Made by a program: the position numbers and the translations under genes. From positions 162,784,347 to 162,848,346 of the forward strand of contig BTPG01000007.1 of NCBI GenBank assembly GCA_036245525.1: 64,000 bases of DNA, in the 5' to 3' direction. The stretch comes from Semisulcospira habei. Taxonomy: Eukaryota > Mollusca > Gastropoda > Semisulcospiridae. Of this stretch, positions 2,791-44,440 are shown piece after piece (within the stretch, counting starts at the first letter, position 1; each line of letters begins with the position of its first letter). Below the pieces are notes generated by a model. That model worked only from the letters and a program-made list of their open reading frames with translations, ran no database searches and was not told the DNA's origin.

Positions 2791-3199
2791 CTCCCCTCGG
2801 GAGGAGTCATCGAATGCTACGTCTTGCCCTTGCAGCCATACGGCGCCTGAGGGATGTTGCCGTGGTGGATTGGTTAACGAGCTTCAGGAGCTACGCCTCA
2901 CCCTGTCTGCCTACAGTTCGAGGGAACAATTACGTACAGCTCCTCTCGGACCATACCTTACCTGGACCGCCGCGCCTTGGTCCACAGGTTCACCTTGCGC
3001 CCGCTTACGGGGCGCTATTCCACCAGGAGACCACGTAGCAAATCCCTGTACAAGCCTCACGGGTGCCTACGACATAGCCGTTCGCTTCGGACGCGCTCGC
3101 CTCTTTGCCGGTTCCGGCAGCACTGACGCTACATGCCGGACGTTCTTCCTGGTTAAGCTCAGTCATACGTTCTGAATTACAGGACCCCTCCCTCAGGGA

Positions 3200-3435
3200 G
3201 GTTAGAGGCTACAGGTACGTTATCAAGGCACTTGCAGGGCCACGAACGTCACATTCGTCAGGGACTGTACTGTCTTGCACTTCGTGGCTACTGGAGGCTG
3301 GCGGGCAGGATGACTTCGCCCGCCTCGATTGCAAAGCTCTGCCAGGCCAGAGAGACTCCTCGCTCTGGTGGAGGCCTTTTTGCGGGGGGCACAACTCCCT
3401 CCTGGCGCCTCAGCGCCGTAGGTATTCACCTACCT
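3200..3435 (+). pseudogene. Tyrosine recombinase C-terminus remnant (DIRS element A)
   Basis: Reading across frames gives GHERHIRQ, then a GWRA-like motif, then LPGQRDSS, in the same order as the intact recombinase ends of elements C and D ([32 protein letters not shown]). Frameshifts break it. The catalytic tyrosine region reads LYCK rather than FYLRD. Confidence 0.6.
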
Positions 3436-3524
3436 AGGGTCGTCGGAAGTTTGCGTTAGGGAGGACGGCCCTTGGGCCCTAAGGTGTGCTGGAGCGCGGC
3501 ACCCACCTCCTGTTCGCAATTCTT

Positions 3525-3888
3525 CCATTCAGTCATGTCATCGGTAATGTTTTTGAAGAAACAAATTCATTTTTCTTTAAAAGGTATTTTTTCGAAAAAT
3601 ACTTACCGATGACATGACTCAAACGACCCTCCCACCTGCCCCGCTTGCCGCTCGTGCGCCAAGTATCCTGACTGAGGGATTATGGGTACCCGGCTTCCGG
3701 GTGGTGGGTATAGGGAGACAACTCTTGGTCCCCTCGGGGTTCCCCGAGTGCCTCCCGGGTTGTGTCTTAACACAACTGGCTCTTAGGCTAGAATGAGTAA
3801 GTAGTAGACACTTCCATTCAGTCATGTCATCGGTAAGTATTTTTCGAAAAAATACCTTTTAAAGAAAAATGAATATTTTGTTTACAAA
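3525..3888. repeat. DIRS A internal complementary region and right inverted terminal repeat
   Basis: At 3525-3618 a near-palindrome begins CAGTCATGTCATCGGTAATG and ends TACTTACCGATGACATGACT. Its halves are complementary to the outer ends of the two terminal repeats, as expected for the DIRS internal complementary region. After about 200 bp, 3810-3888 repeats CAGTCATGTCATCGGTAAGT and ends the element. Known DIRS biology uses this region for circle formation; function here is inferred from structure. Confidence 0.78.
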
Positions 3889-3897
3889 AAAATGTTT

Positions 3898-4175
3898 TTT
3901 CCTCAAATACTAATCACAACTTTAAACCCTAACTTGGTACAAAGATACCTGATGGTAAGACCTTTCTATGCATACTAATTTGGTTGATTCCTTGGAAAGG
4001 TCAAGGGTCACAAGAGCTCAGGAAAGTTTTTTTTCTCAAATACTATTCACAACTTCAAACCCAAACTTGCTACAGAGATACCTGATGGTAAGACCTATCT
4101 ATGCATACTAATTTGGATGACCCTTCAGAAAGGTCGAGAGTCACAGGCTGGCAAATGTGTGTAAAATGCCACAGT
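3898..4175. repeat. Two-unit tandem repeat, about 133 bp, in NF1 intron
   Basis: Two diverged copies share CTCAAATACT, GATACCTGATGGTAAGACCT, CATACTAATTTGG and an AAAGGTC...GTCACA segment. The same family recurs at 61240-61930 and a relative forms the array at 8639-9190. Confidence 0.8.
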
Positions 4176-4227
4176 CCTAGCACAGTCGCGAGTTATTCAC
4201 TGTCACTTTTGTATCTCTTCACTCCAG

Positions 4228-4448
4228 AGAGCACAAAGCAGGTCCTGAAGCTGAGCCTGGCGGAGTTCTCTCTCCCCAAGTTCTACCAGCTGTTCGGCAT
4301 CAGCAAGGTGAAATCGGCAGCGGTGAGCGCATTCCGCACAGGCTACCGCCCCGGTGATCGCTCATTCACCATGTCACCGCCAGAGAATGAGAAAATGCCG
4401 CTCAGCTCTCTGGAGGCCATTGCAGACGCCTTGCTAGAAATTATGGAG
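4228..4448 (+). CDS. NF1: NF1 exon (first in window)
   Basis: The exon follows a pyrimidine-rich acceptor ending CACTCCAG and ends at GAG before GTAAAC. It starts with two bases of a split codon and ends in phase 0. The translation holds [20 protein letters not shown] and [15 protein letters not shown], nearly the vertebrate neurofibromin sequence. The acceptor could shift by two bases because AGAG follows the chosen AG. Between 1 and 4227 no earlier NF1 exon is visible, only retroelement and intronic repeat. Confidence 0.93.
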
Positions 4449-7400
4449 GTAAACATGCTATTTTTTTCAGAATACAAAACCTCACTGTGCATTTTTGTAT
4501 GTGTGCTGGTGTGTGATTTGGGACATTACATCTTCTGAGCTGTACCTGTATACATGTAGATCTGTATGTGAACAGACATTTCTGTCTGCTGCTAATGTCA
4601 CTTGTCAGCTCGCATACGTTGGTTGCCACATCAGTCTCAAAAATGGACAAACTTTTATGTCTTTAACCACTTAGCCCCGAGTCCCTACAGCAGGAGATTG
4701 ATTGACCCTGATAATTCAAGGGTAGTGCCAGATTAGCTTGGCGCCTGAAGGCGCCAAGCTTATCTGGCACTACCCTTGCATTATCATGGTCAATCCATTC
4801 CCTGCAACTGGTATAATAGTTGTTAGACAACACCTCCAAAATTTGAGAAATGGGACCTTGGGGCTAAAAGGGTTAAAGGACAAAGAACAAATTTGGAATC
4901 AGTGTTTCTAAGTACATTTTGAAACGGTTCATTTGTTCCCCAAATCGCGCTGTTCTCAAAATATTTGCAGAATTGTAGTCAATTTGAGATTGTGACTGCT
5001 ATAGATTATTGTATGGCGGCCCCTGGACTCTAGCTGAATTTCTGATTAGGCAGTTATTGAGCATGTTAAGATTTGTGTTGAAGACTTTAACCCTTTGGGT
5101 GTTGGTAGCGGTTTTAGTCGTGATGATCCCTGCAGGAATCATCGCGACTAAAACAGCTACCCACACTTACTTACTTACGCCTGTCACCCCTACCCGGGTA
5201 TAGGCCGTCGACGAGAGACCTCCAGCAACTCCTGTCCTGTGCTTCTCCTTCGATTCTACTCCAGGTGGTTCCCAGTCTCTTGATGTCTGCTTGGAGGTCT
5301 CGACGCCAGGAGTTTCTCGGCCTACCTCTTTTCCTCTTTCCCTGGGGGTTCCATGACAATGCCTGCCTAGTGATACTGGAAGCTGGCTTTCTCAGACTGT
5401 GACCGATCCATCTCCATCTTCTTCGCCCAATTTCATTCTCTGCTGTTATCTGCTCTGTTCTCTCCCAGAGTCTGACGTTGCTGATCTTCTCTGGCCAGTG
5501 GATTTTCAAAATTCTTCTAAGGCAACTGTTCATGAAGGTCTGTACTCTGTTGACTGTGGTTTTTGTCAATCTCCATGTCTCTGCTCCATATAGGAGAACT
5601 GCTTTTACATTGGAGTTGAAAATCCGGACTTTGGTGTGTTGTGACAGCTCTCTGGAACTCCACACTTTTTTCAACTGGAGAAAGGCTGCTCTGGCTTTAC
5701 CGATTCGTGCTCTGACATATGCATCAGTGCCGCCTTTTTTGTCTATGATGCTCCCGAGATAGGTGAAGGACTCCACCTCCTCCAACGGGGTGCCAGCAAG
5801 CAAGACTGGTTCTTCCCTGGTTGCGTTCAGCCTCATTGTCTTTGTTTTCTGTTTGTGAATGGTGAGGCCCACTTGGGACGAGATGTCAGCAAGCCTCGTG
5901 GTCTTGTCCTGCATTTGTTGATGAGTGTGGGACAGTAATGCCAAGTCGTCTGCAAAATCGAGGTCGTCAAGCTGTGTCCACAGTGTCCACTGTATTCCAC
6001 TTCGTCTGTGCTCTGTGGTCATCTTCATGACCCAGTCTATGGCCAGTAGGAAGAGGAACGGAGACAGCAGACACCCCTGCCTGACACCAGTTCTGACCTG
6101 GAGCTCTCTGGTGAACTGCCCTTCGTGGATCACGCGACATGTCATGCCATCATAGCTGCTCTTGATCAGGCGGACGAGCTTTGTGGGTACACCGTAGTGT
6201 CGTAGGAGTTTCCACAGAGTCTCTCGGTCCACGCTGTCAAATGCTTTCTCATAATCCACAAAGTTGACGTACAGCGGGGAGCTCCACTCCAGAGACTGTT
6301 CCACGATGGTGCGGAGAGTGGCGATCTGGTCTGTACATGATCGGTTCTTCCTGAATCCTGCTTGCTGGTCTCTCAGCTGGGGGTCAACGGAGCTCTTCAT
6401 TCTCTCTAGGATGATCCTGTTGAAGACCTTTCCTGGTACTGACAGCAAGGTGATTCCTCTGTAGTTGGAACACTTGCTGAGGTCGCCTTTCTTGGGAAGC
6501 TTGATTAGGTACCCCTCCTTCCAGTCAGCTGGCATCACCTCCTCTTCCCAGATCTTTCCAAACAGTGGGTACAGCATCTCAACTGTTGTCTCTAGGTCTG
6601 CTTTCAGAGACTCCGCTGGGATGCCATCTGGCCCTGCTGCTTTGCCATTCTTCAAAAATGCCACTGCTTTTCTGATCTCTTCCCGGCTGGGTCTGTCACA
6701 GCTGATGGGTAGGTCGGTCTCTGCCGGCTGGATGTCGGGGGGGTCGGGTGGGCTAGGTCTGTTCAGTAACTCTTCAAAATACTCGGCCCATCTGTCGAGT
6801 TGGTCTGCTCTGTCTGCAATAGGCTTGCCTTCTTTGTCTTTTACTGGTCTTTCTGTATGGCCATACTTACCCGACAATCTTCTGGTAATGACGTAGAGCT
6901 GTTTCATGTTGCCGCTGCCTGCTGCCTTTTCTGCCTCTGCTGCCAGGCTGTCTGTGTAGGCCCTCTTGTCTGCCCTGATACTCCTCTTCACCTCGCGGTT
7001 GGCTTCCGAGTATTCCCCCTGTGCCCTTACTTTGGCTGCTCTCATGCGACTGTTGTTGACCGCTGCTTTCTTCTGCTTCCTCGCTTCTATCTTCTTCAAG
7101 GTCTGTGCCGACAGCCAGTCCTTGTGGTGGTGTTTCCTGAACCCTACAGTGTCTTTGCAGGTTGAGTTCAGCGCCTCTCTAACTGCCTTCCACTGCTGCT
7201 CTGTGGTGACCGCCTCCTCTTCATTTACTAGCTCCTGTAGCGCTTGAAACCGGTTGGACAGCACCAGTTTGAACTCTTCTCTAACTCCAGTTTCTCTCAG
7301 GAGGCCTACATTATAGCGCTGTCTTCTTGTTGTCTCTGTGCGGCTTTTCTTTAGCTTGAGCTTCATTCTTGAGGTAAGCAGATGGTGGTCTGAGGCGACA

Positions 7401-10400
7401 TCTGCTCCCCTCCTCACTCGAACATCTTGAAGGGATCTTCTAAATTTCTTGCTAATGCAGATATGGTCTATTTGGTTCTCTGTTGTATGGTCAGGTGAGA
7501 CCCAAGTTGCTTTGTGTATTCTTCTGTGTGGGAAGATGCTGCCTCCAATGACAAGTCGGTTTAGAGCACAAAAGTCTACAAACCTCTCCCCGTTCTCACT
7601 CATCTCCGAGCCTAGTCCCTGTCTCCCCATCACCTCTTCGTATCCGGTGTTGTCCTCCCCTATTTTGGCATTAAAATCGCCCATGATGATGGTGATGTCT
7701 CGCTCCGCACATTTGTCCACGGCACTCTGGAGTCGGTCGTAGAACTCTTGTTTCTCTTCCTCGTCACTGTCATTGGTGGGCGCATAACACTGGATGACGT
7801 TCAGCTTGAGCTTTTTCTTGGTTCTAAAGGCTGCTGTTATAATTCTTGGCCCAAGAGGTTCCCAGCCCATCAGCGCTCTCTGTGCCACTGGTGACAGCAT
7901 GAGTGCTACTCCTTCTGTATGGGGGGCATTCTCCTCTTCATGACCTGAATACAGAACCATCTCCCCACTTAACAGCCTTTTCTGGCCAGACTGCGTCCAT
8001 CTGGCTTCACTGATGCCTAGCAGGGAAAGGTTGTACTTTTGCATTTCCGCTGCTATCTGGGCGGCCTTGCCGCTCTGGTACATGGTCTTGACGTTCCATG
8101 TGCCCATGGTTGTATCCCTGGATAGAGAGAGGCGGCTCGGTCCTGTGGCTTCCAAAGACTTCTGGCTTTCACCACAGGACGTCATAAGTCTTCTAGTAGA
8201 AGAACCTTCCTCCTCCAGGAAAGGAATTACTGTTAGTCTTTTCGTCGGCGTTTTTGTAGCTATTTCCTTTTTTGCAGGGTGGGGAAGCTACCCCCACGCC
8301 CAACCCCCTTACTAGGAGGACCAGGGGTTTTCTGTCGGGGTCACCTTCCCTTAGACCATGTTGGTTCACGGCACTTTATTTCATTCGGTGCACCCCTCTC
8401 ACGAGGGACCCCCTATCCACCACCCAGGGGACGCGCCTCAACGCCGTATGGTCCCAGCGCGAGGAGCTACCCACACGCAAAGGGTTAAAGATTCCATCGT
8501 CAGTTTCGTGTTTTGTGTGCAGGCATGTATGAAAGACATTCCAAGCTGTGAGTGGCTGCAGCAGTGGACCGACCTCTCCAGACGGTAATGATGCACTCTT
8601 TACTTCCTTGATGACCCCTTCACTGCTACTTGGCGAAAAAGACGTATTACAACGTGTCTTTTCCGCTTAGCAGTGTCATTGGATAATTTAGTTGACGCCT
8701 CTCAAAGGTCACAGTGTGTTGACAAATGTGTGAAAAATGGATTCATTTTGAGAAACTTGGATTTCCCTGGTATAAAGACGTATTACAACGTGTCTTTTCC
8801 ACTTAGCAGTGTCATTGGATAATTTTAGTTGACGCCTCGCAAAGGTCACAGGGTGTTGACAAATGTGTGAAAAATGGATTCATTTTGAGAAAACTTGAAT
8901 TTCCCTGGTATAAAGACGTATTACAACGTGTCTTTTCCGCTTAGCAGTGTCATTGGATAATTTAGTTGACGCCTCTCAAAGGTCACAGGGTGTTGACAAA
9001 TGTGTGAAAGATGGATTCATTTTGAGAAAACTTGGATTTGCCTGGTATAAAGACGTATTACAACGCATCTTTTCCGCTTAGCAGTGTCATTGGATAATTT
9101 TAGTTGACGCCTCGCAAAGGTCACAGGGTGTTGACAAATGTGTGAAAAATGGATTCATTTTGAGAAAACTTGTATTTCCCTGGTATAAAAGCCAACCCTT
9201 TATGTATGTTAAAGCACTGGAACACTTCAGTGGCCTGTCTGATAGTTTAACCCATTACATCATGAGGCCGATCTTTTTTTTAAAGATTTGCTTATTTTCC
9301 TATGAAGGCTGCATTATAGATTAGGAGACTGATCAACCGTTTTAGTTCAAGGGTGGTGCCAGAATAGCTTGGCGCCTGAGGCGCCACGCTATTCCGGCAC
9401 CACCCTTGAACTATCGGAGAGAAATTTATTTCAAGCAATCAGTGTATCAGGATGAAAAGGGTTAAGGTCACAAAGGTCAGGCTTACTGTGTTCATCAGTC
9501 GTACACATGAGCCATGCAGGCTTGGCCTTTCGTGTCGATTGTTGCATTCCAATGTGCTTATTCCCTGGCAGATTTGCATTCCAGTACAATCCTGCCCTGC
9601 AGCCGAGAGCCATCATCGTGTACGGGTGTATCAGCAAGACGGTCACCGACTCGGAGGTCAAGCAGCTGCTGAAGATCATGATGAAAGTCAGTGTCATGTC
9701 GGTGAGTCTCCACTCCCGTGCTTTATGAGTGTGGCGGTGAGCGATTCTTAGGTCAAGTGTTGAGGGGGTAGTGTGTAGACGGTGTATGCAGCGAGATTCA
9801 TGGTGAAAATCAGAGACTTTTTTTGTCCCAAGTCGTGAAAATATTTTTTGATCCAGGATGCGTGGATGGCTGTGTTAAGTTTGCCTGCAGTCACTCGGAT
9901 GATTTATTCAAAGGTATTGAGGTTAAAAATGCGAGCACCACCCGACTGCAAGAGGCAAAGAACCTCATGAGCCCCTGCAGATGCGGGGGCTCATGAGGCT
10001 CTTTGCCTTTTGCTGACGTCTATGTTCCTTGGATTAACGGGATTATTCAGTGATGACTTTGCCCTGCATTTTAGGACATGATTTTGGTAGTAAGGGGTTA
10101 AGAGGCAGAGATTCTGAAAAGCCCCTACTGCTGGTGGCGGGAAGGGGGGGGAGGGTGGGTATGGAGAATCCACACGCCTTGCTGGCAGAAATTTGTTGGC
10201 AGCAAGGGGTTTATTTGCACACAGTGTGTGACATGTGAAGAGGCAGTAACTCGAGTGAGCGAGTTGTTTGTAAGCAGTTGACCCTTTCATGTGTTTGGCA
10301 GCGAGTGGCGTGTTGAGATACATAACAACCCCAAACAATAAAACACAGTAGTACAAGGGAAGTGAGGATTCGTGCACAGGTAATTTGTCATAGTTTGTGT

Positions 10401-13400: not shown

Positions 13401-16400
13401 CTTCTCCCTTGGATTCTTGGATTTCTTTGTGGTGCTTTGTGCTTCCTCTCGGACTTAAGGGTGTAGCGGTTTAGCCACGTGTGCCTTTCAATTTTCACGT
13501 GGTGACTTGTGTTTCCGTGCAGGCTACACGTGGTTGGTGTGGCGGATTACTGGTCCTCCCTGGGTCTGTCTTTTCTCCTCGCTTGTCTTCCGTCACTTGA
13601 GGATATGGCCAGGTAAGGTCTCGGGGCATGCTTCGGCCGCTCAGGTTGCTGACTGGTCAACGCATTACTCGGATAAAGGCTGGTTCATTTGCAGCCGATT
13701 TTTGTGACACCGGTCGTGAGTTTCGCCCACGTGGCCCTTTGTTCTTGGGGCCACGTGCTGTTTTCTTTCATGCGTTTTGTTTTCTGTTACAGCGCAAAAC
13801 TCGGTACTTGCCCTAGGTGTAAAGGGTTCCAGTGGCCCTCGGACTCTCACACCTTGTGCCTCCCTTGCTCAGGCAGTTCTTCTGCACATCCGTGCGAGAG
13901 ATTTTCTTTGTGGAAGGAAGAACGGTGGTCCCAGTTGTCGAAGTTTTTCCCAGCGTAACCGGTCTTCTCTCCCCAGGGAACTCCCTCAACTGGCTTCCTC
14001 CTCGCCCCTTCGGCGGGCAACTTCTGATATGGTGGGTCTTTCTTCTCCACACGCACGGCTTGCCGCGGTTTCGTTGCCCCCACGTCTGTGCCCCTTCCTC
14101 ACCGAGCCGCGGAAGCTTTAAACAGCGCTCGGTGTGCCCTGACTACCGGCCGTCAGTACGTTCTAAGGTACGCTTGCTTAGACGCTCTCGTTCAGCCTCG
14201 GTGTCTCGCTCCCCATGGCCTCATTTGGCGACCCGAGACCCCTCGCTCTCGGCCTGTTTCAAGACAGAGCAGATACTAGAGTTCAGCAGGACCCACTCTG
14301 GCTACGGCACAAGTTTCAGCGGGACCCACTCTGGCTACGGCACAAGTCGGCTCCCCGTGACCGAGTGGAGCCTGCCGATCTGCAGTCCAGCTACAGCGCG
14401 GTGCCGCCGCCAGCGATCAGCGACAGGACCCAGCTGTGCTATAGCACAGACCTTCTTTCTCGTACGTACGGCGCTCCTCCGCGCTACAGTGCGGTGCCAC
14501 CGCCAGCATCATGCGACGGGACACAGCTGTGCTACGGCACAGACCTTCTTCCACGTACGTTCAGCGCTTCTCCGTGCTACAGCGCGGTGCCGCCGCCAGC
14601 CACCTGCCACAAGACCCAGCGGTGCTACAGTGCCAGCTTTCTTCCCATGACATGCGGCGCTCCCCCCGCGCTATGGCGCGGCGTCACCAGCGGGACTTTC
14701 ATGGTCTTTGGAACAGGTCAGTGCTCCCGATTCAGCGCCCTTCAGGGCTCCTCCTTCAGGTCTCTGACCCTGTTAGTGTCGTCTGCCTCGAGGATCCCGA
14801 CGACTTCCTTAGCCTCCTCCCGGTGGGCTTGACTTCTGCTGCTCTCCCCTCGCCCGATCCGACCCGCTTGAGCCCTTCCGTGTCCCTGGATTCCCGGTTC
14901 CGTGGGTGCGTTCGGTCTCACTCTTCCTCGCGGGGCCTTTACCCTGCGGACACATGCTGGCCGGCGGGCATCGACTTCCTCTTCTGACGGGACTGTTTGC
15001 GGGACACTCTCAGTCGTTGCCTACCCGCTTCCTCCAGTAGACCCAGCCGCGGAGATGTTGTGTGGAGGCCGACGAGCCCTTCAGCATAGCACCCCCTGCG
15101 AGCTCAACAACACGGTGACCCTGGTCCACATTTCCCTCGCCTGCACCAGGTTCTTGGGGCTAACGACGCAAGCCGTGCTCTTCTCGAGGAGTCCCTGGAG
15201 CGCCTGGATGCGGATGCCCGGAGTGATTGCCTAGCCTTGGCGGCCTTGGGCCTGCCGCCCGGTTTTCTGCGCGTCCCCTTCGCCCGCACCTCGGCCGCGA
15301 CTGTGACCTCGTGCACCGGATCCCTGGCTGGTTTTTGCCTTCTCCTACATGTGCCCTTCCTGCCGTCTTCCTGGTCGGTGGTGCTCCTTCTTTGACCTTT
15401 AGCGCCTCGTTGGGCTTCCTGGATTGTTTTCTTAAGTGCTTACCTTCGCGCCAGTGTGAGGATGGGATCCTTCTTCCCGTCACTCCGTTCGGCTGGCGCA
15501 CTCGCTGGGCCGCCTTCTCCTCAGCCACGCCTGGACCCTGCCCTTGTCCCCCCCCCCCCTCCCGCCCCCCCCCCCCCCCCCCCCCCCCCCCCCGCTCTTT
15601 ATGCGAGGCTGAGGGTTTAGTACGGTACTGGCCCCGGCGGACATTCCTTCTCCCAGGCCCTGAGCGGATTGCGTCTCGCGGGTGGACGTTGCCTGAGAGG
15701 GTGTGGGCTCGCCCTCTCCGCAGGAGTTTTCGCGCTTGTGGCAGTGGAGCCTTCCGGTGGCCGGCGGACCTTCATCGGCGTTGGTCGCGCGCGCGCGTGT
15801 TTTCGTGAGCCCCGCAGTGGCCAGCCTGGCAGACGGTCGGCTTCCTTCTGACACTTATTCCCGCGTCTGGTGTCAGCTCGCTGCGCGCACCCTCAGTGGT
15901 TTTGGCTTCTTCTCCAGTACAGCGTCTGGAGTCAGCGGGCTGCATGTGCTCGCAGTGGACCCGGCCTGTGCTTCACAGGGTTGATGGATGGCCGCCGGAA
16001 TCAGCCAATGGCCGTACCACGTGGAAGACACCGTTTCTCGTCTGGTCACCGAAGTTAAGCAACGTCGGGCTCGGTTAGTACTTGGATGGGTGACCGCCTG
16101 GGCTCTCGAAGTGCTGTTGGAAAGAATATGGCATGTACTCTCTGTGTGCCCGGCCTGTGCTCCAACACAGGGCCGATGGACGACGGCCGGATTCAGCATG
16201 CGGCATATACTCCTCGTGGACCCGGCCTGTGCTTTAGCACAGGGCTGATGGACGACAGCCGCAGGTGGCAAGCGACGTGAGCTCTCAGTGTACTCGGCCT
16301 GTGCTTCAGCACAGGGCGGATGGATGACCGCCGGAATCAGCATGCGGTATGTGCTCCTTGTGACTCTGACCTGTGCTTCAGCACAGGGCGGATGGATGAC

Positions 16401-25400: not shown

Positions 25401-28400
25401 GTTACGCGGCACCCTTATCCTCTTCGTTATTCTCCATTGTAGTAATGGCATCGGTAATGTTTTTGAGGAAACAAATTAATTTTTCTCTAAAATGTATTTT
25501 TTCGAAAAATACTTACTGATGCCATTACGCGGATGGTCCTCCCACCTGCCCCGCATGCCGCTCGCCAGCTAAACGAAAGAACTGGTTTGGCTTAGCTGCT
25601 CGGGCTGTTACCCGTAACGGGTGGGAAGGGAGGCTACCCGGGTACCAGGTCATGGCACCCCTGGTGGCCTCCCCTGGCCCTAAAGGTACACATTGTAAGT
25701 TTTTGGGCTAAAATTACGCTAGCTATAGGTTGTTCCATTGTAGTAATGGCATCGGTAAGTATTTTTCGAAAAAATACATTTTAGAGAAAAATTAATTTTT
25801 CGAAAAATACTTACCGATGGCATTACTCGAATGGCCCTCCCGCCTGCCCCGCATGCCGCCGGAGCGCTATAGCGTTCAAATGGCGTGACTCCCCGGCACA
25901 TGTGCCCGGATGAGGAGGGAAGGGAGGCTACTCGGGGGCCCTTGGTAAGGACGGGTCCCTGGAGTTGTTTCCCTGGTTGTGTATGTATACATAACAAATT
26001 TTAGGCTGAAATCATTAAGCTAAGTGTATCTTCCATACAGTAATGCCATCGGTAAGTATTTTTCAAAAAAATTACATATTTTCCAACTGGCACCATTATT
26101 TTAGTTGAATGGCAAACTCATTTCATGTCGATATTGGAGAATGCTTAACACATCCAGCCCTGATGCACTACAGCAGGAGATGGATCAACCATGATTATTC
26201 AAGGGTAGTGCCAGATAAGCTTTGTGCCAACAGGCGCCAAGCTTGTTTGGCACTACCCTTGAATTATCATGGTTGATCCATCTTCTGCAACTGGTGCATT
26301 GTCGTTAGCTGACGCCTCCAAAATTTGGGAAATACAGGTGTGGGGTTACTTACTTACTTACTTACGCCTGTCACCCCTACCCGGGTATAGGCCGTCGACG
26401 AGAGACCTCCAGCAACTCCTGTCCTGTGCTTCTCCCTCGATTCCACCCCAGGTGGCCCCCAGTCTCCCGATGTCCGCCCGGAGGTCTCGATGCCAGGAGC
26501 CTCTCGGCCCACCTCCCTTCCTCCCTCCCTGGGGGCTCCATGACAATGCCTGCCTAGTGATACTGGAAGCTGGCTTTCTCAGACCGTGACCGATCCATCC
26601 CCATCCCCTTCGCCCAACCCCATTCTCTGCCGTCATCTGCTCTGCTCTCTCCCAGAGTCTGACGTTGCTGATCTTCTCTGGCCAGTGGATTTCCAAAATT
26701 CTTCCAAGGCAACCGTTCATGAAGGTCCGCACTCTGTCGACTGTGGCTTCCGTCAATCTCCATGTCTCCGCTCCATACAGGAGAACTGCCCCTACATTGG
26801 AGTTGAAAATCCGGACCTTGGTGTGCTGTGACAGCTCTCTGGAACTCCATACTTTTTTCAACTGGAGAAAGGCCGCTCTGGCTTTACCGATTCGTGCTCT
26901 GACATCTGCATCAGTGCCGCCTTTTTTGCCCACGATGCTCCCGAGATAGGTGAAGGACTCCACCTCCCCCAACAGGGTGCCAGCAAGCAAGACTGGTTCT
27001 TCCCTGGTTGCGTTCAGCCTCATTGTCTCTGTTTTCTGTTTGTGAATGGTGAGGCCCACTTGGGACGAGATGTCAGCAAGCCTCGTGGTCTTGTCCTGCA
27101 TTTGTTGATGAGTGTGGGACAGTAATGCCAAGTCGTCTGCAAAATCGAGGTCGTCAAGCTGTGTCCACAGTGTCCACTGTATTCCACTTCGTCTGTGCTC
27201 TGTGGTCATCTTCATGACCCAGTCCATGGCCAGTAGGAAGAGGAACGGAGACAGCAGACACCCCTGCCTGACACCAGTTCTGACCTGGAGCTCTCTGATG
27301 AACTGCCCTTCGTGGATCACGCGACATGTCATGCCATCATAGCCGCTCCTGATCAGGCGGACGAGCTCTGTGGGTACACCGTAGTGTCGTAGGAGTTTCC
27401 ACAGAGTCTCTCGGTCCACGCTGTCAAATGCTCTCTCATAATCCACAAAGTTGACGTACAGCGGGGAGCTCCACTCCAGAGACTGTTCCACGATGATGCG
27501 GAGAGTGGCGATCTGGTCTGTACATGATCGGTTCTTCCTGAATCCCGCCTGCTGGCCTCCCAGCTGGGGGTCAACGGAGCTCCTCATTCTCTCTAGGATG
27601 ATCCTGTTGAAGACCTTTCCTGGTACTGACAGCAAGGTGATTCCTCTGTAGTTGGAACACTTGCTGAGGTCGCCTTTCTTGGGAAGCTTGATTAGGTACC
27701 CCTCCTTCCAGTCAGCCGGCATCACCTCCTCCTCCCAGATCTTTCCAAACAGTGGGTACAGCATCTCAACTGTTGTCTCTAGGTCTGCTTTCAGAGACTC
27801 CGCTGGGATGCCATCTGGCCCTGCTGCCCTGCCATTCTTCAAAAATGCCACTGCTTTTCTGATCTCTTCCCGGCCGGGTCTGTCACAGCTGATGGGTAGG
27901 TCGGTCTCTGCCGGCTGGATGTCGGGGGGGGGGGGGGGGTGTCGGGTGGGCTAGGTCTGTTCAGTAACTCTTCAAAATACTTGGCCCATCCGTCGAGTTC
28001 TGTCCCACACTCATCAACAAATGCAGGACAAGACCACGAGGCTTGCTGACATCTCGTCCCAAGTGGGCCTCACCATTCACAAACAGAAAACAAAGACAAT
28101 GAGGCTGAACGCAACCAGGGAAGAACCAGTCTTGCTTGCTGGCACCCCGTTGGAGGAGGTGGAGTCCTTCACCTATCTCGGGAGCATCATAGACAAAAAA
28201 GGCGGCACTGATGCAGATGTCAGAGCACGAATCGGTAAAGCCAGAGCAGCCTTTCTCCAGTTGAAAAAAGTGTGGAGTTCCAGAGAGCTGTCACAACACA
28301 CCAAAGTCCGGATTTTCAACTCCAGTGTAAAAGCAGTTCTCCTATATGGAGCAGAGACATGGAGATTGACAAAAACCACAGTCAACAGAGTACAGACCTT

Positions 28401-31400
28401 CATGAACAGTTGCCTTAGAAGAATTTTGAAAATCCACTGGCCAGAGAAGATCAGCAACGTCAGACTCTGGGAGAGAACAGAGCAGATAACAGCAGAGAAT
28501 GAAATTGGGCGAAGAAGATGGGGATGGATCGGTCACAGTCTGAGAAAGCCAGCTTCCAGTATCACTAGGCAGGCATTGTCATGGAACCCCCAGGGAAAGA
28601 GGAAAAGAGGTAGGCCGAGAAACTCCTGGCGTCGAGACCTCCAAGCAGACATCAAGAGACTGGGAACCACCTGGAGTAGAATCGAAGGAGAAGCACAGGA
28701 CAGGAGTTGCTGGAGGTCTCTCGTCGACGGCCTATACCCGGGTAGGGGTGACAGGCGTAAGTAAGTAAGTAAGTAATCCGTCGAGTTGGTCTGCTCTGTC
28801 TGCAATAGGCTTGCCTTCTTTGTCTTTTACTGGTCTTTCTGTATGGCCATACTTACCCGACAATCTTCTGGTAATGTCGTAGAGCTGTTTCATGTTGCCG
28901 CTGCCTGCTGCCTTTTCTGCCTCTGCTCTGCCTCGGCTGTCTGTGTAGGCCCTCTTGTCTGCCCTGATACTCCTCTTCACCTCGCGGTTGGCTTCCGAGC
29001 ATTCCCCTGTGCCCTTACTTTGGCTGCTCTCGTGCGACTGTTGTTGACCGCTGCTTTCTTCTGCTTCCTCGCTTCTATCTTCTTCAAGGTCTGTGCCGAC
29101 AGCCAGTCCTTGTGGTGGTGTTTCCTGAACCCTACAGTGTCTTTGCAGGTTGAGTTCAGCGCCTCTCTAACTGCCTTCCACTGCTGCTCTGTGGTGACCG
29201 CCTCCTCTTCATTTACTAGCTCCTGTAGCGCTTGAAACCGGTTGGACAGCACCAGTTTGAACTCTTCTCTAACTCCAGTTTCTCTCAGGAGGCCTACATT
29301 ATAGCGCTGTCTTCTTGTTGTCTCTGTGCTGCTTTTCTTTAGCTTGAGCTTCATTCTTAAGGTAAGCAGATGGTGGTCTAAGGCGACATCTGCTCCCCTC
29401 CTCACTCGAACATCTTGAAGGGATCTTCTCAATTTCTTGCTAATGCAGATATGGTCTATTTGGTTCTCTGTTGTATGGTCAGGTGAGACCCAAGTTGCTT
29501 TGTGTATTCTTCTGTGTGGGAAGATGCTGCCTCCAATGACAAGTCGGTTTAGAGCACAAAAGTCTACAAACCTCTCCCCGTTCTCACTCATCTCCAAGCC
29601 TAGTCCCTGTCTCCCCATCACCTCTTCGTATCCGGTGTTGTCCTCCCCTATTTTGGCATTAAAATCGCCCATGACGATGGTGATGTCTCGCTCCGCACAT
29701 TTGTCCACGGCACTCTGGAGTCGGTCGTAGAACTCTTGTTTCTCTTCCTCGTCACTGTCATTGGTGGGCGCATAACACTGGATGACGTTCAGCTTGAGCT
29801 TTTTCTTGGTTCTAAAGGCTGCTGTTATAATTCTTGGCCCAAGAGGTTCCCAGCCCATCAGCGCTCTCTGTGCCACTGGTGACAGCATGAGTGCTACTCC
29901 TTCTGTATGGGGGGCATTCTCCTCTTCATGACCTGAATACAGAATCATCTCCCCACTTAACAGCCTTTTCTGGCCAGACTGCGTCCATCTGGCTTCACTG
30001 ATGCCTAGCAGGGAAAGGTTGTACTTTTGCATTTCCGCTGCTATCTGGGCGGCCTTGCCGCTCTGGTACATGGTCTTGACGTTCCATGTGCCCATGGTTG
30101 TATCCCTGGATAGAGAGAGGCGGCTCGGTCCTGTGGCTTCCAAAGACTTCCGGCTTTCACCACAGGACGTCATAAGTCTTCTAGTAGAAGAACCTTCCTC
30201 CTCCAGGAAAGGAATTACTGTTAGTCTTTTCGTCGGCGTTTTTGTAGCTATTTCCTTTTTTGCAGGGTGGGGAAGCTACCCCCACGCCCAACCCCCTTAC
30301 TAGGAGGACCAGGGGTTTTCTGTCGGGGTCACCTTCCCTTAGACCATGTTGGTTCACGGCACCTTATTTCATTCGGTGCACCCCTCTCACGAGGGACCCC
30401 CTATCCACCACCCAGGAGACGCGCCTCAACGCCGTATGGTCCCAGCGCGAGGAGGTGTGGGGTTGAGTGAGTTAAAATAGAAAATGAAAAAAAAAAGCGT
30501 TTGAGAAATTTTATAATCCACATTTTTGTTTGTCACAGCGTTGGTGTCAGTGTCTGAGGAAGTTAGGAGCCGGTGTCACCTCAAGCACCGCACAGCTCAG
30601 TACATCATCGCCGACTCCCCTTCCAACGACAGCCTCAGCTCGGAACTTGCATCTTCATCTGGCATCTACGTCTCTCCCTCCATCTCCACATCAACCTTCA
30701 TCTCTTCAGCGTCCAGCACGACGGTCAGTTCCGTCAGCGGGCCGGGTCTCAGCCCTGGGGCCATCGGTGGGATTATTGGTGGGGGTCCATTGTCCGCTCC
30801 GCCCACCGGCACGTCCCTTGGGCGTCGCCAGAAGTCATGTGACCTCCTGGACCAGGCGGCCATGAGTCAGGCGCGCCAGGGGAAGAACGCGCAGCTGACA
30901 CAGAGTCAGGTAGGGGCGGAGAAGGCTTTGTCTTCTTTTTTCAGCAACTTTTTTATTTCGAGTCGGCCTCATTTTTTTTTCCCGCTATACTGCGGTATCT
31001 GATGTAACACGCACAGGTCTCTGGCTCCCACGGGGATGTCCAATGAGCAAAAGGTCCTCGGGCTGACGTCAGCCTTAGCTGGCCCGCGCACACACTGGCC
31101 CACGCACGGCTGTGCACGGGACAGCAAGGATGACGTCAGCTCAAGGACCTTTTGCTTTTGCCTGTTTTTCTTCTTCTTCACCAGTCTATGTAAATTCAGT
31201 ACTACGAATAACGCAATCACGAATAACGAATAACGCAGTGTGACTTGTGGCTCCTAGCGCCTTACATAGCTATTCTGGCACTACCCTTGAACTATTTTAG
31301 TCAAACATATTTCGCACACTGGTGTATTCCGAATGATAAGGGTTACCTGACCTGTATTACTCTAAATTGTTGTCATTCTTCTTTTCGGTATGTTGGTCTG

Positions 31401-35718: not shown

Positions 35719-38700
35719 CTCAAGAGGTAGGTTCTACTTCTGGTAAAAAATGTCTGTACATCGCACACCACTATGTGATGGCTTGATGTCAGCAGCCATA
35801 TACCCTTATGACATTTCACAAATCAGTCACGTTTTGTATTTTTTGTCTGAGGTGTATTTCGGGCATGTTTAAGCCTTTATTGGCTAAGGGCTGCTTTAAT
35901 CAGCGTGCTGACCCTTTAGTTTTTTTTGAGTAAACCTTTGTTAGGTTTTTATGGTAGTTCGTTTTTAGTTCATTTTGTATTGTTCAAGTAGTTGATGAAT
36001 TCTCGCTGCCGTCACTGCCAATTGAAAGGGCTAGTGGCGAGTAGAAGATAATGTCGTCAGTCGGGGCTCAACCACTGCTAATTGTCTGAGCTAGTAGAGC
36101 GTAGATGGTTGTAGTTCAGTTTTATTTTTTCCACTGCCAATTGGTAGGGCTAGTGGGGAGTAGAAGAGCTGCTCTGTCGTGGAGCTTCCACTGCTAATTG
36201 TGAGAGCTAGTGGAATTTCCGGTTTTTGCGTTTTGGTTCTTTCTCTTCATGCAGTGCTGGTGGACGCTGTTCGAACATGACCTGCCAGCTCGGTTGTGAA
36301 AACTGCCGTCAACTGTGTAGCTTGATGCGGGTCCGTCACTTGACTGGTTATTTCTCTAGTTTGATTCGTGACTGGCTGCATACTAGGATGCGTCTTCTCG
36401 CACTGAGCGCGCCGGCCGGCGTGGTCCAGAAGTGTCGTGTGCAGCCGGTGAGCCGTATACTGTCTTATGTTGTGCCAACATAAGGATCAATAGGTCTGTT
36501 TCCTTATTTATAGGAAGGTAGTGGGGTTCACTCCGTTGTTGCTGTACTTTTCACATTCGGTCTGCCTGTATCTTGTCTCTGTCTTTGCCTTCAGTGGTTG
36601 TGTCGCCGAGGACCGTGCTTAGTAATATTGCTGTACTTTGTATTCATTACAGCAATACACCAAGACAAGGTTTAGTCTCAATGGGCTCAAGTTGCTTTTT
36701 TGTTTATTTTTTAAATTTTGTTGTTGTTGCGGGAATCCGTCTGCTCCTAGTGCTGAGATTGACACGATGTATATTTCCTTTTCATTGCTTTCATACCTTT
36801 CTGGTCTGGTGGCTATGTGTAGATGGTATATGGCACTATCTTTGGTTGATCTTGCTGTTTGTGCCTTGCTTGTTTTTGGGCCAGGTAGACTCAGTCAATG
36901 TTTCAGTGTGACTCGCTTGTTGCTGGGGCGTGTAGACTCGACTGTGTGTAATAAATGGTGCTCAAACACAACACACCTACAACACGTTCAGTAGCCTGTT
37001 TATTCTGGCTTGGCCGTATACACAAAGTTTTATGACACAGGTCTAGATATTGTTTCGTCACTCATTCCCTTCTGTATTTTGAGCACATTTTTGCTTGCAA
37101 TAAGCCAGGTACTGCTCTCGTCAGCGGACCCACCTAACCACAGCCGGCTGGTCACATCAAGCCATCACATAGTAGTGTGCGATGTACAGACATTTTTTTT
37201 ACCAAAAATAGGCTGATCCACCACAACTACACATTTAAGACTGCCTGGCTTGGTCACACTTTTATTAGTGGCACAGGTCTAGTCACACAACAATAACTCC
37301 CTCACCAACAAATAAAACAAACGGAAAAAAAAGTCGACGAAACAAGGCCCCATGAGGACCAATCAAATCAAACGTAACGGAGTACACAGGGCATGAACAA
37401 AGTGGCTAAACGAACACTCATTCTTGGTAGGCCGCGCGGCCCATACCATAGGAGCCCCAAAACACTTCTGCTCGCTAGTGTGCAACAGCGAACGCGCGGC
37501 ACCAATCAGAAGCTCCGTAACACATCCGCTCGCCAGCGCGAAAACAGCGAATGTGCGGCACCAATCAGAGAAAACGTACCAACCAATAAACGATTGCGTA
37601 ACAATGCCTATATACTGCGAGCGCCCACGGCAAAAAAACAGGAGATGAGCATTCAACTGATCACCAAAACAATGGCCTACTTAAACTTCACCTACGCAGT
37701 GGAGAACCAAGCAACGGAGGCAACTGAAGCGGAGCTCTTGGAACAACTCAACGAACCAATGGAGGAAAACGAGGAAACCACCCGGCAAGCCTCACTTACA
37801 GCTGCCCCGGACTTAACAGTGCAGCCCATGACACTGCAACCGGCACCCACCCCTGCACCAACAGAGCCAGACCCAGTAATTGAATTTTGGGACCGCCTAC
37901 ACCTCCTGTACCAAAACCACCTCAGCTGGGTGACGGTCCACAGGGGGCTAGAATATGAACGAAAGTTTGGGCGCCCGGCAGCTGCAGTGGAAATAACCTT
38001 CAAATCAAGGGCCACATTCAACGGGGACCGGAAGAGGTCCGAACAAGACCAAACTAGTCTCCAACGCAAGATAAAAGAGTTGAAAGACTCATCCCTAGGC
38101 TCCCCGCTCGCCTTTTCGAAGCAGAAAATTGAAGAGCGGACCAACGAACTAAACTTAGTTCATAAAGAAGCAGCCAGGAGACTACAAAACGAGGCACTCA
38201 AACAGCTGGAACAAAAGATGCTAGTGGCAGTGACGGACGAGGGCCTCAAGAAACAACGGTACGTGGACAAGCTCCACAAGCCAGAAACAGCCTGAACCTG
38301 GGCCCCTTTCGCCATAAAGCGAAAGCTGTAAAAACAGTCCTTGTGCAATACACAGGTCCTTTTCAGGACCACACACTTTCCCAAGAAAGGACAAACTAGT
38401 CCTCCAAAACTGATCATGGGGTTAACCAAAAGAATAAAGATTCATTTGACCTAACTAACGGGAGATGGGAATACTTGGACAGAACACCAAGGTACTATAA
38501 CAGAAACGAACAGACCCAACCAGAGTCAAACACAGGCAGCGATGACTTAACACGGCCAAACACGCCGCAAAACAAAAACAACAGACAATAGTGCTACCCG
38601 CACCCCCCCCCCCCCCCCCCAACAACGCAATGAATCGAAAAACAAAAAAGTGACACCAACAAATAGAAATTCACAGAACAGTCACAACAAAAAGAAAAGT

Positions 38701-41700
38701 TCTGTGTTAATCACCATTGTGGTTAGGTTGGTCCGCTGACGAGAGCAGTACCTAGCTTATTGCAAGCAAAAATTTGCTCGAAATACACAAGGGAACGAGT
38801 GACGAAACAAAATCTAGACCTGTGTCATAAAACTTTGTGTATGCGGCCAAGCCAGAATAAACAGGCTACCGAACGGGTTGTTGGTGTGCGATGTTTGAGC
38901 ACCATTTTATACACGCACACCAGACAATAACGGCAAACACATGGCCTAGAAACAACGAAAAGGATTCGTGAAACTTTGGGGAAGAATCATCCTCGGGCTG
39001 TGGAACGGGAGGTTGGGTGTGTGACGTTGAGCACAGTGTATACACACACAGCTCAAACCAAAAGCAGAAAATAACACGGCCTAAACAAAGCGCTTTATAA
39101 CAATGGCTTAAGCCAGAATAGAAACTGTGCGCGCGTAGACCTGAACCGAAGGCGTGGCATGGCTCATGCACACCAGACAAACGACGTGAAAATATGAGAC
39201 ACTGGGGAAGAATCCCCCGTAGCCGCCATCGCCAACAACAAATTAATCCCAACTAGGTTCGTGTAATGAATCACACCAAGGATGGCTTCAACTTGTTCGG
39301 GAAAAAAAAGCAAATACAACCTTCTTAACCCGGCAAACATATGGCCTAGAAACAACAAAAAGGATACGTGGACCGAAATATGAAACTTTGGGGAAGAATC
39401 ATTCTCAGGCTACAAAGTGAACAACACTAAGCTGTATAACAGCTTTTAACAAACAACTTAATGCAATGAATCGCAACTAAATGGCCCACTGAATCACGGA
39501 AACTGACTGGCTCAGCCGTGAGGGGAATGTACAACCTAAAACTGTACCCAAACAAATATGCCCAGAGAACGGGTTGTTAACACATGAACACACATGTGTA
39601 CAAAGATCTAACCAATATGGAAAGGCTGACACATAACTACGTGGGTCGTCCCAAAAAACACAAACAGTACATGTACAATAACTTGTGCCGAAAATGAACA
39701 TACACGTATGTAATTTCTCAAGCCCAGCTTTGAACTTGGAACGTGAATATGCTAACAGTTGGCGCGGGGGCTCAGCCACCCGAAGACCGATGACCAAACA
39801 TTATGCAACGGTACAGAGTAAAAATCACAAGGAGGGTACAGTCTTTGGAAGTGACTCACTAGCCGGGCCCGGCGTCACACTCTGACTCAAACCCTATAAA
39901 TCTATGAACACTCTGGGACTGTTGATACAGATCACAGATCAAAAAGACATGAATGCATAGAACTATGTTCAAACAATGTGCTTGTAAAGAAACACGCATC
40001 AACACAATCAAAGAGGCAACCCCCTCCCACCCTGCCCAGCTGCCTTGCAGAAACGGACACGGCTCGCGGCATGCATGCAATGGCAGCATGGTTGACCAAT
40101 CGACGCTCATGTCACGATGGGCAGCCGCAGGTCAACTACCCGTGAAGTTAGCGCGCCGAACCTCGCTAACCCACAGCCACCGCGCTAAACTCCAAAACTG
40201 GACACGCTATACAACCAAGAGGAGTAGCCTAAGCACGCGGCGAGCAGTGAACAGTCTGTAAACGCAATATTCTGGAACATGGAACACATCAGTAACGAGT
40301 GAAGGTGGACACAACAGACCTCGAACTTGATGTAACACAGACCAACGGCACCAAAAGGCCACCAGTCTACGACTGCCATGTCTCAAGGAAGGCCACGCTA
40401 AACACAAAGCAACAAACCGCGTTAACAAACGCACAACGGAGCTGTACCAAAAACACACCTCACAGCCAAGGCAAACCGGCTTAATACAAGGCCGACCAAA
40501 CACAACGAGCGCAAATCAGCGCACAACAAACGAGAACAAATAATAACACCGCCTAAACAGACGCGCATAACGGCACAGGGCCCACGATAACGGCACATGC
40601 CCCCCAAAAAAGAAACTGGGAGAGAGTGGACCTGAACCTAGGCATGGTATGAGGATGACTATGCACACCAGATAAATGATGCACAGTTTCAGAACCCAAC
40701 AACAACAAACGCAATGAGGCTGACGTAACCCGTCACAACTTGAAACCAGCCACAAAGAAATACAGAGACCCAACCAGAGGAGTTGCAGCAACAAAATAAA
40801 GCAACGTATAAGCGCCAGATTATCAAAATCAAAACGCATAACAGCACCTGGCCAAGGTAAGACTGGATTGAATCGCAAGCCCCCCGCCTTAACTCGGCAA
40901 ACCAAAGGCCTAGAAACATACTGGAAATAAGTATATGGGGACCAATCCTCCCCGCGGCCAACCGCGTTAACAAACGCACAATGGAGCTGCAAAGAAGTTT
41001 TCAGTTCCCCACCAATAGTTGCGTACAAGCACCACAAAAACCTAGGAGACCAGATCATCAGATCAAAACTCAAAACTGAGAACAGATGATCACACCGCCT
41101 AAAACAGACGCATACAATGACGCGGGGCCCACGACAACGGCACACGCCCTAAAAAAGAGAAACTGGGAGCGCGTGGACCTGAACCCAGGCGTGGTATGAA
41201 ATTGACCCATACACTCCAGATAAACAGCATCGACTACTGCAACTTTCTCCTTTCCGGCCTCGCTCACTCCACCACTTTCACTCTCCAGCGCGTCCAGAAC
41301 AATGCTGCCCGCCTCGTCCTCAGAAAGAAAAAATCCGACCACATCACTCCCCTGCTCAAACTCCTTTACTGGCTTCCCATCCCCCAAAGCATCCAATACA
41401 AGATTCTGTCTCTCTGCTACAAATCCCTGAACAACTGCGCTCCTGCCTATCTCTCAAACTTACTTCACCCCTACACTCCTCCCCGCTCCCTCCGCTCCGT
41501 CTCCGACCCTCTCCGCCTTCACATCCCCCACACCAAACTCGGCACTTTCGGCCCCCGCTCCTTCTCAGTATACGGTCCATCCACCTGGAACACTCTCCCA
41601 CTCTCTCTCCGTCAGAAACACTCTCTCTCCTCCTTCCAGTCCGCCCTCAAAACTCACCTCTTTCAACAGTTCTAGCACTATACCACCACACTCCCCATCC

Positions 41701-44440
41701 CAAGCTGACTGTCTTAATGTATTTCACTATTTGTGGTTCGTGAGTCGTTGTCTAAAGCGTGCGCATGCGTGCGCGAGTTGTGAGTGCGCGCTTAGAGTTA
41801 TAATTATTATAAGATAAGCGCATTATAAATACCGTAATTATTATTATTATTATAAACGACGCACAGTTTCAGAACCCAAACTGACAGGCAAACCTTTAAG
41901 GCCTGGACTGAACGGCAAGACCCTCCTAACACGCCAAAAAAAAAAAAGGCCTAGAAACATACTCATAACAACAAATGGGGAACAGGAGGATCAGGAAAAC
42001 AATTTCGATGGAACAATGCAATGAACCGAAACCGAAATGGATAGAACCTGTCACGCGCTGCGCGGAAAGGAAAGGAGGAATGATCAACCAATTATGCGCC
42101 AACAACAAAATTCACTGGTGTCTCACACTGGGCCGCGCTGCGGGTATAAAGAAGCATGCGGCCGCGCGCAAGAGTCATTCCGACACCCAACGCAACAGGA
42201 AACAGAAGCAAACAAACTGCCCCTAAACAACAACACGCAATGAAACACATTGACCCCACAACAAAAAAGAAAGAAGGAAACAACACAGGAACCAACGGAC
42301 TGTAATACAAGGTTGACTTCCCCACCAATAACAACGCACAAAAGTCGCAACAAAATTTGGGAATCCAAATTTACGCATACTAACAAATGCAAATACGGAG
42401 TCATCACTGCAACAGGAAACTGAGCCAAACAAACTGCCCCTAAACAACAACACGCAATGAAACACATTGACCCCACCAAAAAAAAAAAAAAAACAAGGAA
42501 AGAAACAACACGGTAATGAACAGACTGTAATACAATGTTGACTTCTCCACCAATACACAATGCACAAAAGTCACAAAAAAATTTGGGAATCCAAATTTAT
42601 GCATAGCAACAAATGCGAATACGAAGCACGCGCACACGAAAATGACCCAGGCATAAACAATGACTCAAGCACACCAGACAAAATGGCGCGTGGCTGAACT
42701 ATAATGCCACTGACGCAGTCAGTCGCAGTGAGGCGGGTGCAACCAAACCGAGCCAAAAAACAGTCACAAAAACGTCACTACCCAACCAAATGAATAAACA
42801 ACAGCCTAACAACCAGCGAGAAACAGGCAAACATATGAAGCCTGGATGGAACTACAGGACCTTCTTGGTCCGGCAAACAGATGGCTTAGAAACATACGAA
42901 AGTATATGTGGACCAGAAATGTCAAACAATGGGGAAGAATCCTCCTCGCAGCCTTCATCTTTACCAATGGCTTAAATCCAACCATCTTCATGAAATGGGC
43001 GGCCTTAAGAGATAACGCAGTCCAAAATCACTTTATGTACCTCTTCAAACTGTTCACAAGGAGGCAAATACAACAAAAACCTGTACTCATTTGACCTAAC
43101 CAACGGAAGATGAGAATATTTGGATGGAACAACAAGGTACTATAACAAAAACGAACAGACCCAATCAGAGTCAAACACAGGCAGACAATAGTGCTACCCG
43201 CACCCCCCCCCCCCCCTAACAACGCAATGAATCGAAAAACAAAAAAGTAACACCAACAAACAGAAATCCACAGAATGGTCACAACAAAAAGAAAAGTTCG
43301 GTGTTAATCACCATTGTGGTTAGGTGGGTCTGTTGACGAGAGCAGTACCTGGCTTATTGCAAGCAAAAGCAAAAATGTGCTCGAAATACACAAGGGAATG
43401 AGTGACGAAACAAAATCTAGACCTGTCATAAAACTTTGTGTATACGGCCAAGCCAGAATAAACAGGCTACCAAACGTATTGTAGGTGTGCGATATTTGAG
43501 CATTTTCTTCGTCCCTGCGATATTTGAGCATTATCTTCGTCCCTGCCTTTACCATCATCATTGTCTGTGGATGGAACACTCATTGGCTTCTCTGCAAGTG
43601 TGAGAAACCTGGGTGTTACACTTGACAGCGAGTTATCTATGTCACAGCATGTCAGTGCAGTGTGTAGATCCGCTTATCTGGAACTTCGTCGTATTAGTTC
43701 AGTTCGTCACCTGCTGACCGTGGAAGCCACTAAAACACTAGTTTGTGCATTTGTGCTGTCCAAGCTAGATTATTGTAACTCTTTGCTTTGTGGCTGCCCT
43801 CAGTATCTCATTGATCGCCTCCAAAAAATTCAGAACAATGCAGCCCGGCTTGTTGTGAGAGTCCGTAAGACTGAGCATGTCACACCCATCTTGAAGTCCC
43901 TTCACTGGCTACCTGTGTCCTCACGTATTCAATACAAAGTTATGTCAATCTGTTTTAACTGCCTTTCAGGCACCAGCCCAGAATACTTGTCCTCTTTGCT
44001 GCATGTGTATACACCCTCTCGTGAGCTCCGCTCCTCTTCTGATAAACGGAAGCTGTGTGTACCTTCTGTCAAAACTAAAACATTTGGTCAGCGCACTTTT
44101 GTTTATCAAGCCCCAGTGTTATGGAATACACTTCCTCTTGAGGTCAGAAACAGTGAGTCTGTCTCTGACTTCAGGAGGTCGTTGAAAACTCACCTCTTCA
44201 AGCTTTACTTTGAATGACTGCCAGTGTTTGATGCCTTAGTTGTAGTTCTGCAATCCTCCTTGTTTAGACTGAATGTTAATTAGAATATAAATTATTATTG
44301 TTGTTTAGTTTATTGTAAAAGTGGTGTGTTCGGGCATTGTGCTTTGTTTGTTATGTGCATATGTCATTGTATTTTATTTTTGTGTACAGATTGTAAAGCG
44401 CTTAGAGCTTTTGAGTAAGATTAAGCGCTATATAAATACC

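Follow-up and report, generated by a model that had tools for sequence, protein, structure and literature searches.

The intronless open reading frame (ORF) in the window, the 64-kb stretch of DNA analysed here (G000:C7:162784347-162848346), is best explained as ORF1 of a Penelope-like retroelement family in which a histone-type 3' end separates ORF1 from a reverse transcriptase (RT) ORF, with putative use of this ending in S phase. We give this reading a probability of about 0.7. The layout of the element is complete in one genomic copy, and the order ORF1, stem-loop and RT is present in 12 copies. This order is shared by diverged subfamilies, the stem-loop is conserved, and ORF1 has evolved under selection. 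Judged from sequence, the histone-type ending would be in use, with SLBP and U7 acting on an S-phase transcript that lacks poly(A).

Histone-type layout of the window copy

The initial annotation described a histone-type gene layout at this ORF, and the description holds: four CCAAT motifs and TATATA precede an intronless frame, which is followed by a stem-loop and a purine-rich element (Table 1). The Rfam model RF00032 matches positions 38350-38394 with 36.2 bits, its gathering score being 34; calculated over the complete window and every family, E is 6.9e-7. This is its single match in the 64 kb at the gathering threshold. The match extends over the whole model, from the letters specific to histone genes and the loop to the A-rich flank and the distance to the purine element. 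The bare consensus GGYYYTTHTNARRRCC, searched with at most one mismatch, occurs once in the window (with no mismatch) compared with 1.19 expected occurrences. Because about one occurrence is expected by chance, the bare pattern alone is not significant, and the weight of evidence therefore lies on the covariance-model score and on the comparison with other copies. A chance hairpin is ruled out by the RF00032 score together with the recurrence of the stem-loop in 39 of 41 loci, as compared with shuffled sequences. Four CCAAT motifs per 250 nt is the maximum in the 64 kb and is attained in 2 of 6375 overlapping intervals of the plus strand.

Table 1 Features of the window copy and of related pieces of the element (positions in the window)
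Feature	Position	Strand	Basis
Inverted piece of the element 3' tail	36943..37142	-	200 nt, 92% complementary to 38718-38917
5' region and promoter, homologous to the L015 5' region	37212..37644	+	Motif positions; alignment to L015
CCAAT motifs (start positions)	37359, 37502, 37561, 37583	+	Motif scan
TATATA	37609-37614	+	Motif scan
ORF1, 216 aa from the family start codon; TGA early relative to the family	37645..38295	+	
In-frame continuation of 11 codons to TAA 38329-38331; matches the basic tail of relatives	38296..38331	+	
Histone-type 3' stem-loop GGTCCT-TTTC-AGGACC (GGTCCTTTTCAGGACC)	38355..38370	+	Rfam RF00032
Predicted purine-rich, U7-type histone downstream element CCAAGAAAGGA	38381..38391	+	Sequence
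AATAAA polyadenylation signal, 3' of the stem-loop	38433..38438	+	Sequence
End of ORF3 and 3' tail of the element, joined directly to the ORF1 unit, RT region missing	38442..38917	+	
Piece of another copy with an ORF3 remnant (42813-43218) and the tail	42813..43502	+	

The frame of 207 aa proposed earlier is open from ATG 37672, but the family start codon lies upstream at ATG 37645 (MSIQLIT...), as in relatives, and the TGA at 38293-38295 comes early. The related protein P0001 has a sense codon there and continues with WAPFAKKRKL. The distance of about 60 bp between stop codon and stem-loop is right for the early TGA (59 nt) but shrinks to 23 nt when it is counted from the TAA of the continuation. 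The alignment to L015, another genomic copy, covers 37212-37346 and then 37369 onward, and the inverted tail piece is the same as the 3' ends of other copies. RT queries give no match in the 64-kb window. Because the RT is absent and the TGA removes the KKRKL-type basic tail that relatives keep, the window copy is a non-autonomous derivative, in which ORF1 and its signals have been fused to the tail, the RT has been lost and ORF1 has been shortened. It is perhaps no longer fully functional. The places found by the genome search with P0001 include other long copies that have no internal stop.

ORF1 does not encode a histone, in agreement with the initial annotation: five histone queries give no match in the window (best E 0.20), and the protein has no noteworthy Pfam match. 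The alternative offered by the annotation, capture of a histone locus followed by replacement of its coding part, was rejected as the main reading because no histone remnant is present in the window. Moreover, ORF, stem-loop and RT occur in one and the same order even between subfamilies whose proteins are about 70% different, which speaks against capture and makes the arrangement look old.

Some other features of the window lie outside this unit. A 5S rRNA-like sequence at 16004-16122 (RF00001, 76.3 bits), mollusc-like in appearance and perhaps a 5S-derived SINE, is located amid other repeats. LINE copies are found at 5171-8185 on the minus strand and at 26358-30173, one of them with an intact endonuclease/RT frame of 1004 aa (Pfam); we take them to be RTE-like. 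An 8-nt inverted match flanking the gene was set aside, its size being that expected by chance according to our estimate.

ORF1 family in the genome

Search of the genome (1,983,391,078 bases, 1.98 Gb) with P0001 gives 150 scored places among 369 candidates, all with E 8e-11 or better. These are places rather than copies, because several rows are parts of one copy, and they comprise two sets of long copies, one with 46-59% and the other with 26-33% identity, as well as many short fragments. Forty longer loci, chosen for length and not randomly, were studied together with the window copy (L009), making 41 loci. On the basis of the stem-loop and the purine element, L007-L032 form subfamily A and the remainder subfamilies B and C. 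ORF1 protein identity is 26-29% between A and either B or C (four pairs) and 46% between B and C (one pair). A lineage-specific host gene was dropped as an explanation, given the multi-copy family in the genome and the RT ORF downstream.

Nine loci of subfamily A (L010, L011, L012, L013, L022, L024, L026, L027 and L032) are ORF1-only copies that lie on several contigs and match L010 at about 94-99%. Several of them share the same tail, and none has an RT within the stretch examined; apparently this set is the most recently active of the loci studied. At 32-1231 (+) of L010, a proline-rich frame of 399 aa lies directly upstream of the very young ORF1 copy. This frame has no Pfam match at E<=1, and its DNA recurs beside other copies, including L007 and L020. 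A left boundary of the element at the start codon, as L010 suggested, was rejected: it is peculiar to L010, and other copies keep the TATATAA region.

ORF1 protein

Among 5.8 billion proteins, the relatives of ORF1 are P0001 (220 aa, 54% identity, source jgi) and P0002 (168 aa, 63% identity, source lgn), the terminal residues of which look like a frameshift of the family sequence. An alignment-based search over the best 7997 candidates and a search with part of P0001 give no additional relatives, and comparison with Pfam, NCBIfam, PHROGs and PDB gives nothing at a meaningful level. No relative was found in the viral contigs, phages, plasmids and prokaryote genomes searched, and a viral origin was rejected on this basis. 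The bare 16-mer stem-loop is present in six viral contigs (L001-L006), which we take for chance.

The protein is acidic over residues 1-70 (net charge -12.5 in the window protein and -11.5 in P0001) and basic from residue 121 on (+5.0 and +8.0, respectively). AlphaFold models are poor (mean pLDDT 54.2 and 55.6, pTM 0.22), and these low-confidence models suggest a long helix at the C-terminus. Fold searches with the models return nothing at E<=0.001; an Alba-like fold, with rows at E of about 1 only, was set aside.

ORF1 is under purifying selection. Of 17 chosen pairs, 16 have a dN/dS ratio of 0.11-0.19, and one (L011/L013) has a ratio of 0.40. The values for distant pairs are rough because dS reaches 0.5-1.5 there, and some pairs may include a few codons before the start, since each frame was taken from its first in-frame ATG. 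Simulated neutral drift of the window frame to 54% identity produces a mean of 5.1 stops, and none of 300 runs stayed open.

Conservation of the stem-loop across copies

In the region 1900-2600 of the oriented loci, the consensus stem-loop is found with 0-2 mismatches in 39 of 41 loci and is exact in 31; at this threshold it was not found in L023 and L041. In 20 rounds of mononucleotide shuffling, the mean is 1.55 of 41 loci (maximum 4) with no exact match. Equal-length stretches give 0 of 41 upstream and 2 of 41 downstream, again with no exact match. Read on the reverse strand, the region 1900-2600 itself gives 35 of 41 at up to two mismatches and no exact match, since the hairpin differs little from its reverse complement. 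The initial annotation had called for more copies of the ORF with its stem-loop and had named a lack of stem-loop conservation among them as evidence against its reading; with the 150 scored places in the genome and the stem-loop kept beside the ORF in 39 of the 41 longer loci, the adoption of a histone-type layout by a repeat element is supported. These counts cover the longer loci. Among the short fragments, the scan took in the L048 stretch (C4:143299000-143306999). It belongs to an array whose units, about 5.7 kb each, carry ORF1 fragments (residues ~73-192 of the L010 ORF1), and its 8 kb, with three ORF1 fragments, hold no stem-loop at up to two mismatches with six pairs.

RF00032 scores above the gathering threshold in 5 of the 40 further loci (L014, L040, L045, L046 and L047) and below it in 35; at a relaxed E-value, all nine long ORF1 loci among 13 sources searched match with 29.3-40.9 bits (E 1.2e-8 to 2.5e-4), the other four sources containing no long copy. 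The main type in subfamily A is GGTCCT-TTTY-AGGACC with a purine element CAAGAAAGG or CGAGAAGGG-like, and that in B and C is GGCCCT-TTTA-AGGGCC, followed by CCACAGAG in B and by CAAGAACGG in C. The purine element is thus present in the window and in subfamilies A and C and poor in B, and CCAAGAAAGG and CGAGAAGGG are candidate sequences for pairing with U7.

Base pairing was analysed in 28 distinct sequences, all preselected for 0-2 mismatches to the consensus. Standard pairs occupy 97.6% of pair cells, compared with 93.0% (sd 0.8) in shuffles and 10.7-57.1% in slid versions. At the third stem pair, 16 of the sequences have U-A and 12 have C-G. Two of the five pair measures do not rise above the shuffles, namely the pairs with a double change (2, attained by 63 of 500 shuffles) and the further pair types (5, attained by 485 of 500). 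The change between U-A and C-G sets subfamily A apart from the other two and may have happened a single time.

Mean identity among 12 subfamily-A copies is 0.94 in the stem-loop, 0.83 in the spacer and 0.82 in the purine element. The flanks are at 0.67 (-90..-41), 0.72 (-40..-1), 0.77 (+37..+76) and 0.42 (+84..+129), and AATAAA, at 0.58, is not well conserved. This signal lies 3' of the stem-loop in 21 of 26 A copies and in 2 of 15 copies of B and C. Polyadenylated ORF1 mRNA may be produced because AATAAA follows the stem-loop in so many A copies, as would be expected if a histone 3' end had been acquired once, the mRNAs now terminated at AATAAA and the hairpin were drifting. Such a relic is very improbable, since the stem-loop is the best conserved part of the 220 nt compared, even though silent sites in the more distant pairs are near saturation (dS about 0.7-1.5).

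Of 39 loci for which a frame was listed, 28 have a stop codon 24-70 nt 5' of the stem; in the other 11, the frame passes the stem-loop in six, stops far before it in three and has no stem-loop in two. Both this placement and the match to the whole RF00032 model argue against the idea that the stem-loop is the element's own signal, for example an RT start site or a packaging signal, which resembles the histone hairpin by convergence and involves neither SLBP nor U7. ACACAC or a similar sequence is found 3' of the stem in many copies, and a Penelope-like RT is described, in passages of PMC11167929, as starting in vitro within an AC-rich stem-loop of its own RNA, so that convergence has some basis; we nevertheless regard it as quite unlikely.

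Upstream of ORF1, CCAAT occurs on average 1.15 times in 400 nt, compared with 0.52 (sd 0.12) in shuffles and 0.44 in a downstream stretch. The enrichment comes mostly from subfamily A including the window; there are few in B and C, whose start fits the tested stretch less well.

Reverse transcriptase and element structure

An RT-like ORF is located downstream of the stem-loop on the same strand in 12 of 41 loci, namely eight of A (L014-L018, L020, L021 and L030), one of B (L036) and three of C (L040, L042 and L045); L017 and L020 hold only the beginning of this ORF. RT identity between A and C is 51-53%. One complete copy, L015+L053, contains ORF1, stem-loop, RT frame, ORF3 and tail in a partial tandem, and its RT frame, which includes GCAMGQVPSPSCSD and YRDD, is unbroken over 724 codons. 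Among Pfam families, RVT_1 alone matches at E<=1, with E 0.0014 for the full frame, 0.0004 for the second half of this frame and 0.0024 for the corresponding half from another copy; all these matches are below the curated cut-off. The first halves alone give no noteworthy match, an RT piece with YRDD at L052 gives no RVT_1 match at E<=1, and the second half gives nothing at E<=1 against PDB. The motifs KADK, LPKTHK, GRPIIS and YRDD are presumably of the Penelope-like RT type, and the motifs and layout of the element as a whole resemble, as we take it, Penelope-like elements.

L015+L053 is a partial head-to-tail tandem: direct repeats at 1-801 and 5352-6149 are 99% identical and are followed by a truncated copy starting inside the RT. 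With its ends placed by the repeat, the L015 copy would span 802-6149 (about 5.35 kb). The other pair checked, L018+L055, has no terminal repeats within the stretch examined. These repeats and the 92% inverted arms in the window are the tandem or pseudo-LTR structure and the inverted ends looked for in Penelope-like elements. ORF3, at 5384-5881 of L015+L053 (joined minus strand), is 166 aa long from its first ATG and is also present in L018+L055; its match to DUF7752 is weak (E 0.0082, below cut-off). A GIY-YIG domain was found neither at E<=1 in one full RT frame nor at E<=5 in ORF3, and a hammerhead ribozyme neither at E<=0.5 in 13 sources nor at E<=1 in 5 sources. We read the ORF as ORF1 of a Penelope-like family without an endonuclease domain, a probable placement that draws on sequence motifs, the array structure and a weak RVT_1 match.

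ORF1 may also be conceived as a host multigene family with histone-type expression that was captured and spread as mere cargo between Penelope-like terminal repeats. The remaining 29 of the 41 loci have no RT within the stretch examined, the ORF1-only copies are highly alike across several contigs, and Penelope elements are reported in passages of PMC3846280 to capture host genes between pseudo-LTRs. However, the order of ORF1, stem-loop and RT on one strand recurs despite the low identity of ORF1 (26-29%) and RT (~51-53%) between subfamilies. Host cargo would need either repeated capture or one very old capture turned into a part of the element, and we consider it unlikely.

Comparison with known systems

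A class of Penelope-like elements with two ORFs and no endonuclease domain is known (PMC6431247, in the passages available). The family described here is like this class in having an RT-like ORF with YRDD and presumably Penelope-type motifs, an upstream ORF1 and no GIY-YIG match, as well as partial tandem and inverted fragments. As far as the same passages describe the class, the present family differs in that a stem-loop of histone type and a purine element lie between ORF1 and RT, in the extra ORF3, in the lack of a detected hammerhead and in having many copies well inside chromosome-length contigs. Partial head-to-tail tandems of Penelope-like elements are described in parts of PMC11167929 and PMC3846280. 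According to the former, canonical Penelope/Poseidon elements share with the present family an RT and tandem or partial-tandem arrays forming pseudo-LTRs, but have one ORF with RT and GIY-YIG and, in the element studied, a hammerhead, neither of which was found here.

Invertebrate histone genes have a double termination signal, in which the stem-loop and purine element are followed by AATAAA (PMC2270838, in the portions available). The intronless frame, stem-loop, purine-rich element and downstream AATAAA are like those of the replication-dependent histone genes in this source, and TATA and CCAAT as in these genes are seen in the window and some A copies only. Unlike the histone genes described there, the present units encode a non-histone protein, occur as repeat copies and have an RT ORF downstream in 12 of 41 loci. 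In the open-licence papers searched, judged by titles, abstract starts and the passages cited, no transposable element is described as having a histone 3' end.

Possible mechanism and implications

The order of the element would be ORF1, then stem-loop, purine element and AATAAA, then the RT ORF, the small ORF3 and the tail. In S phase, SLBP and U7 snRNP would cleave the transcript 3' of the stem-loop, and the product would be a short ORF1 mRNA without poly(A), synthesised and degraded like histone mRNA. The double termination signal of stem-loop with purine element and AATAAA, in which AATAAA is present in 21 of 26 A copies, speaks in favour of this. The RT ORF would be carried by uncut or later-ending transcripts, which would also be the template. 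ORF1, with its acidic N-terminus, tentatively modelled C-terminal helix and basic KKRKL end, may act in the nucleus to package the RNA of the element or to deliver it. Free DNA ends are required by an RT without an endonuclease. Expression timed to chromosome replication would coincide with free 3' DNA ends being available to an RT that lacks an endonuclease domain; we conjecture that this supply of ends is most likely the reason for the histone-type timing. We see about even chances that the family has made the histone mRNA pathway part of its life cycle in this manner, with SLBP and U7 cutting a short S-phase ORF1 mRNA from a multi-ORF element, so that the protein would be produced exclusively during DNA replication.

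To our knowledge, the histone 3' RNA ending is confined to histone genes. If our reading is true, no earlier group of animal mRNAs outside the histones would have a conserved ending of this kind, and a mobile element with such an end would break the histone-only rule. It would also allow the contribution of the stem-loop by itself to be assessed in a natural setting, and would give a handle on the timing and priming of insertion in endonuclease-less Penelope-like elements.
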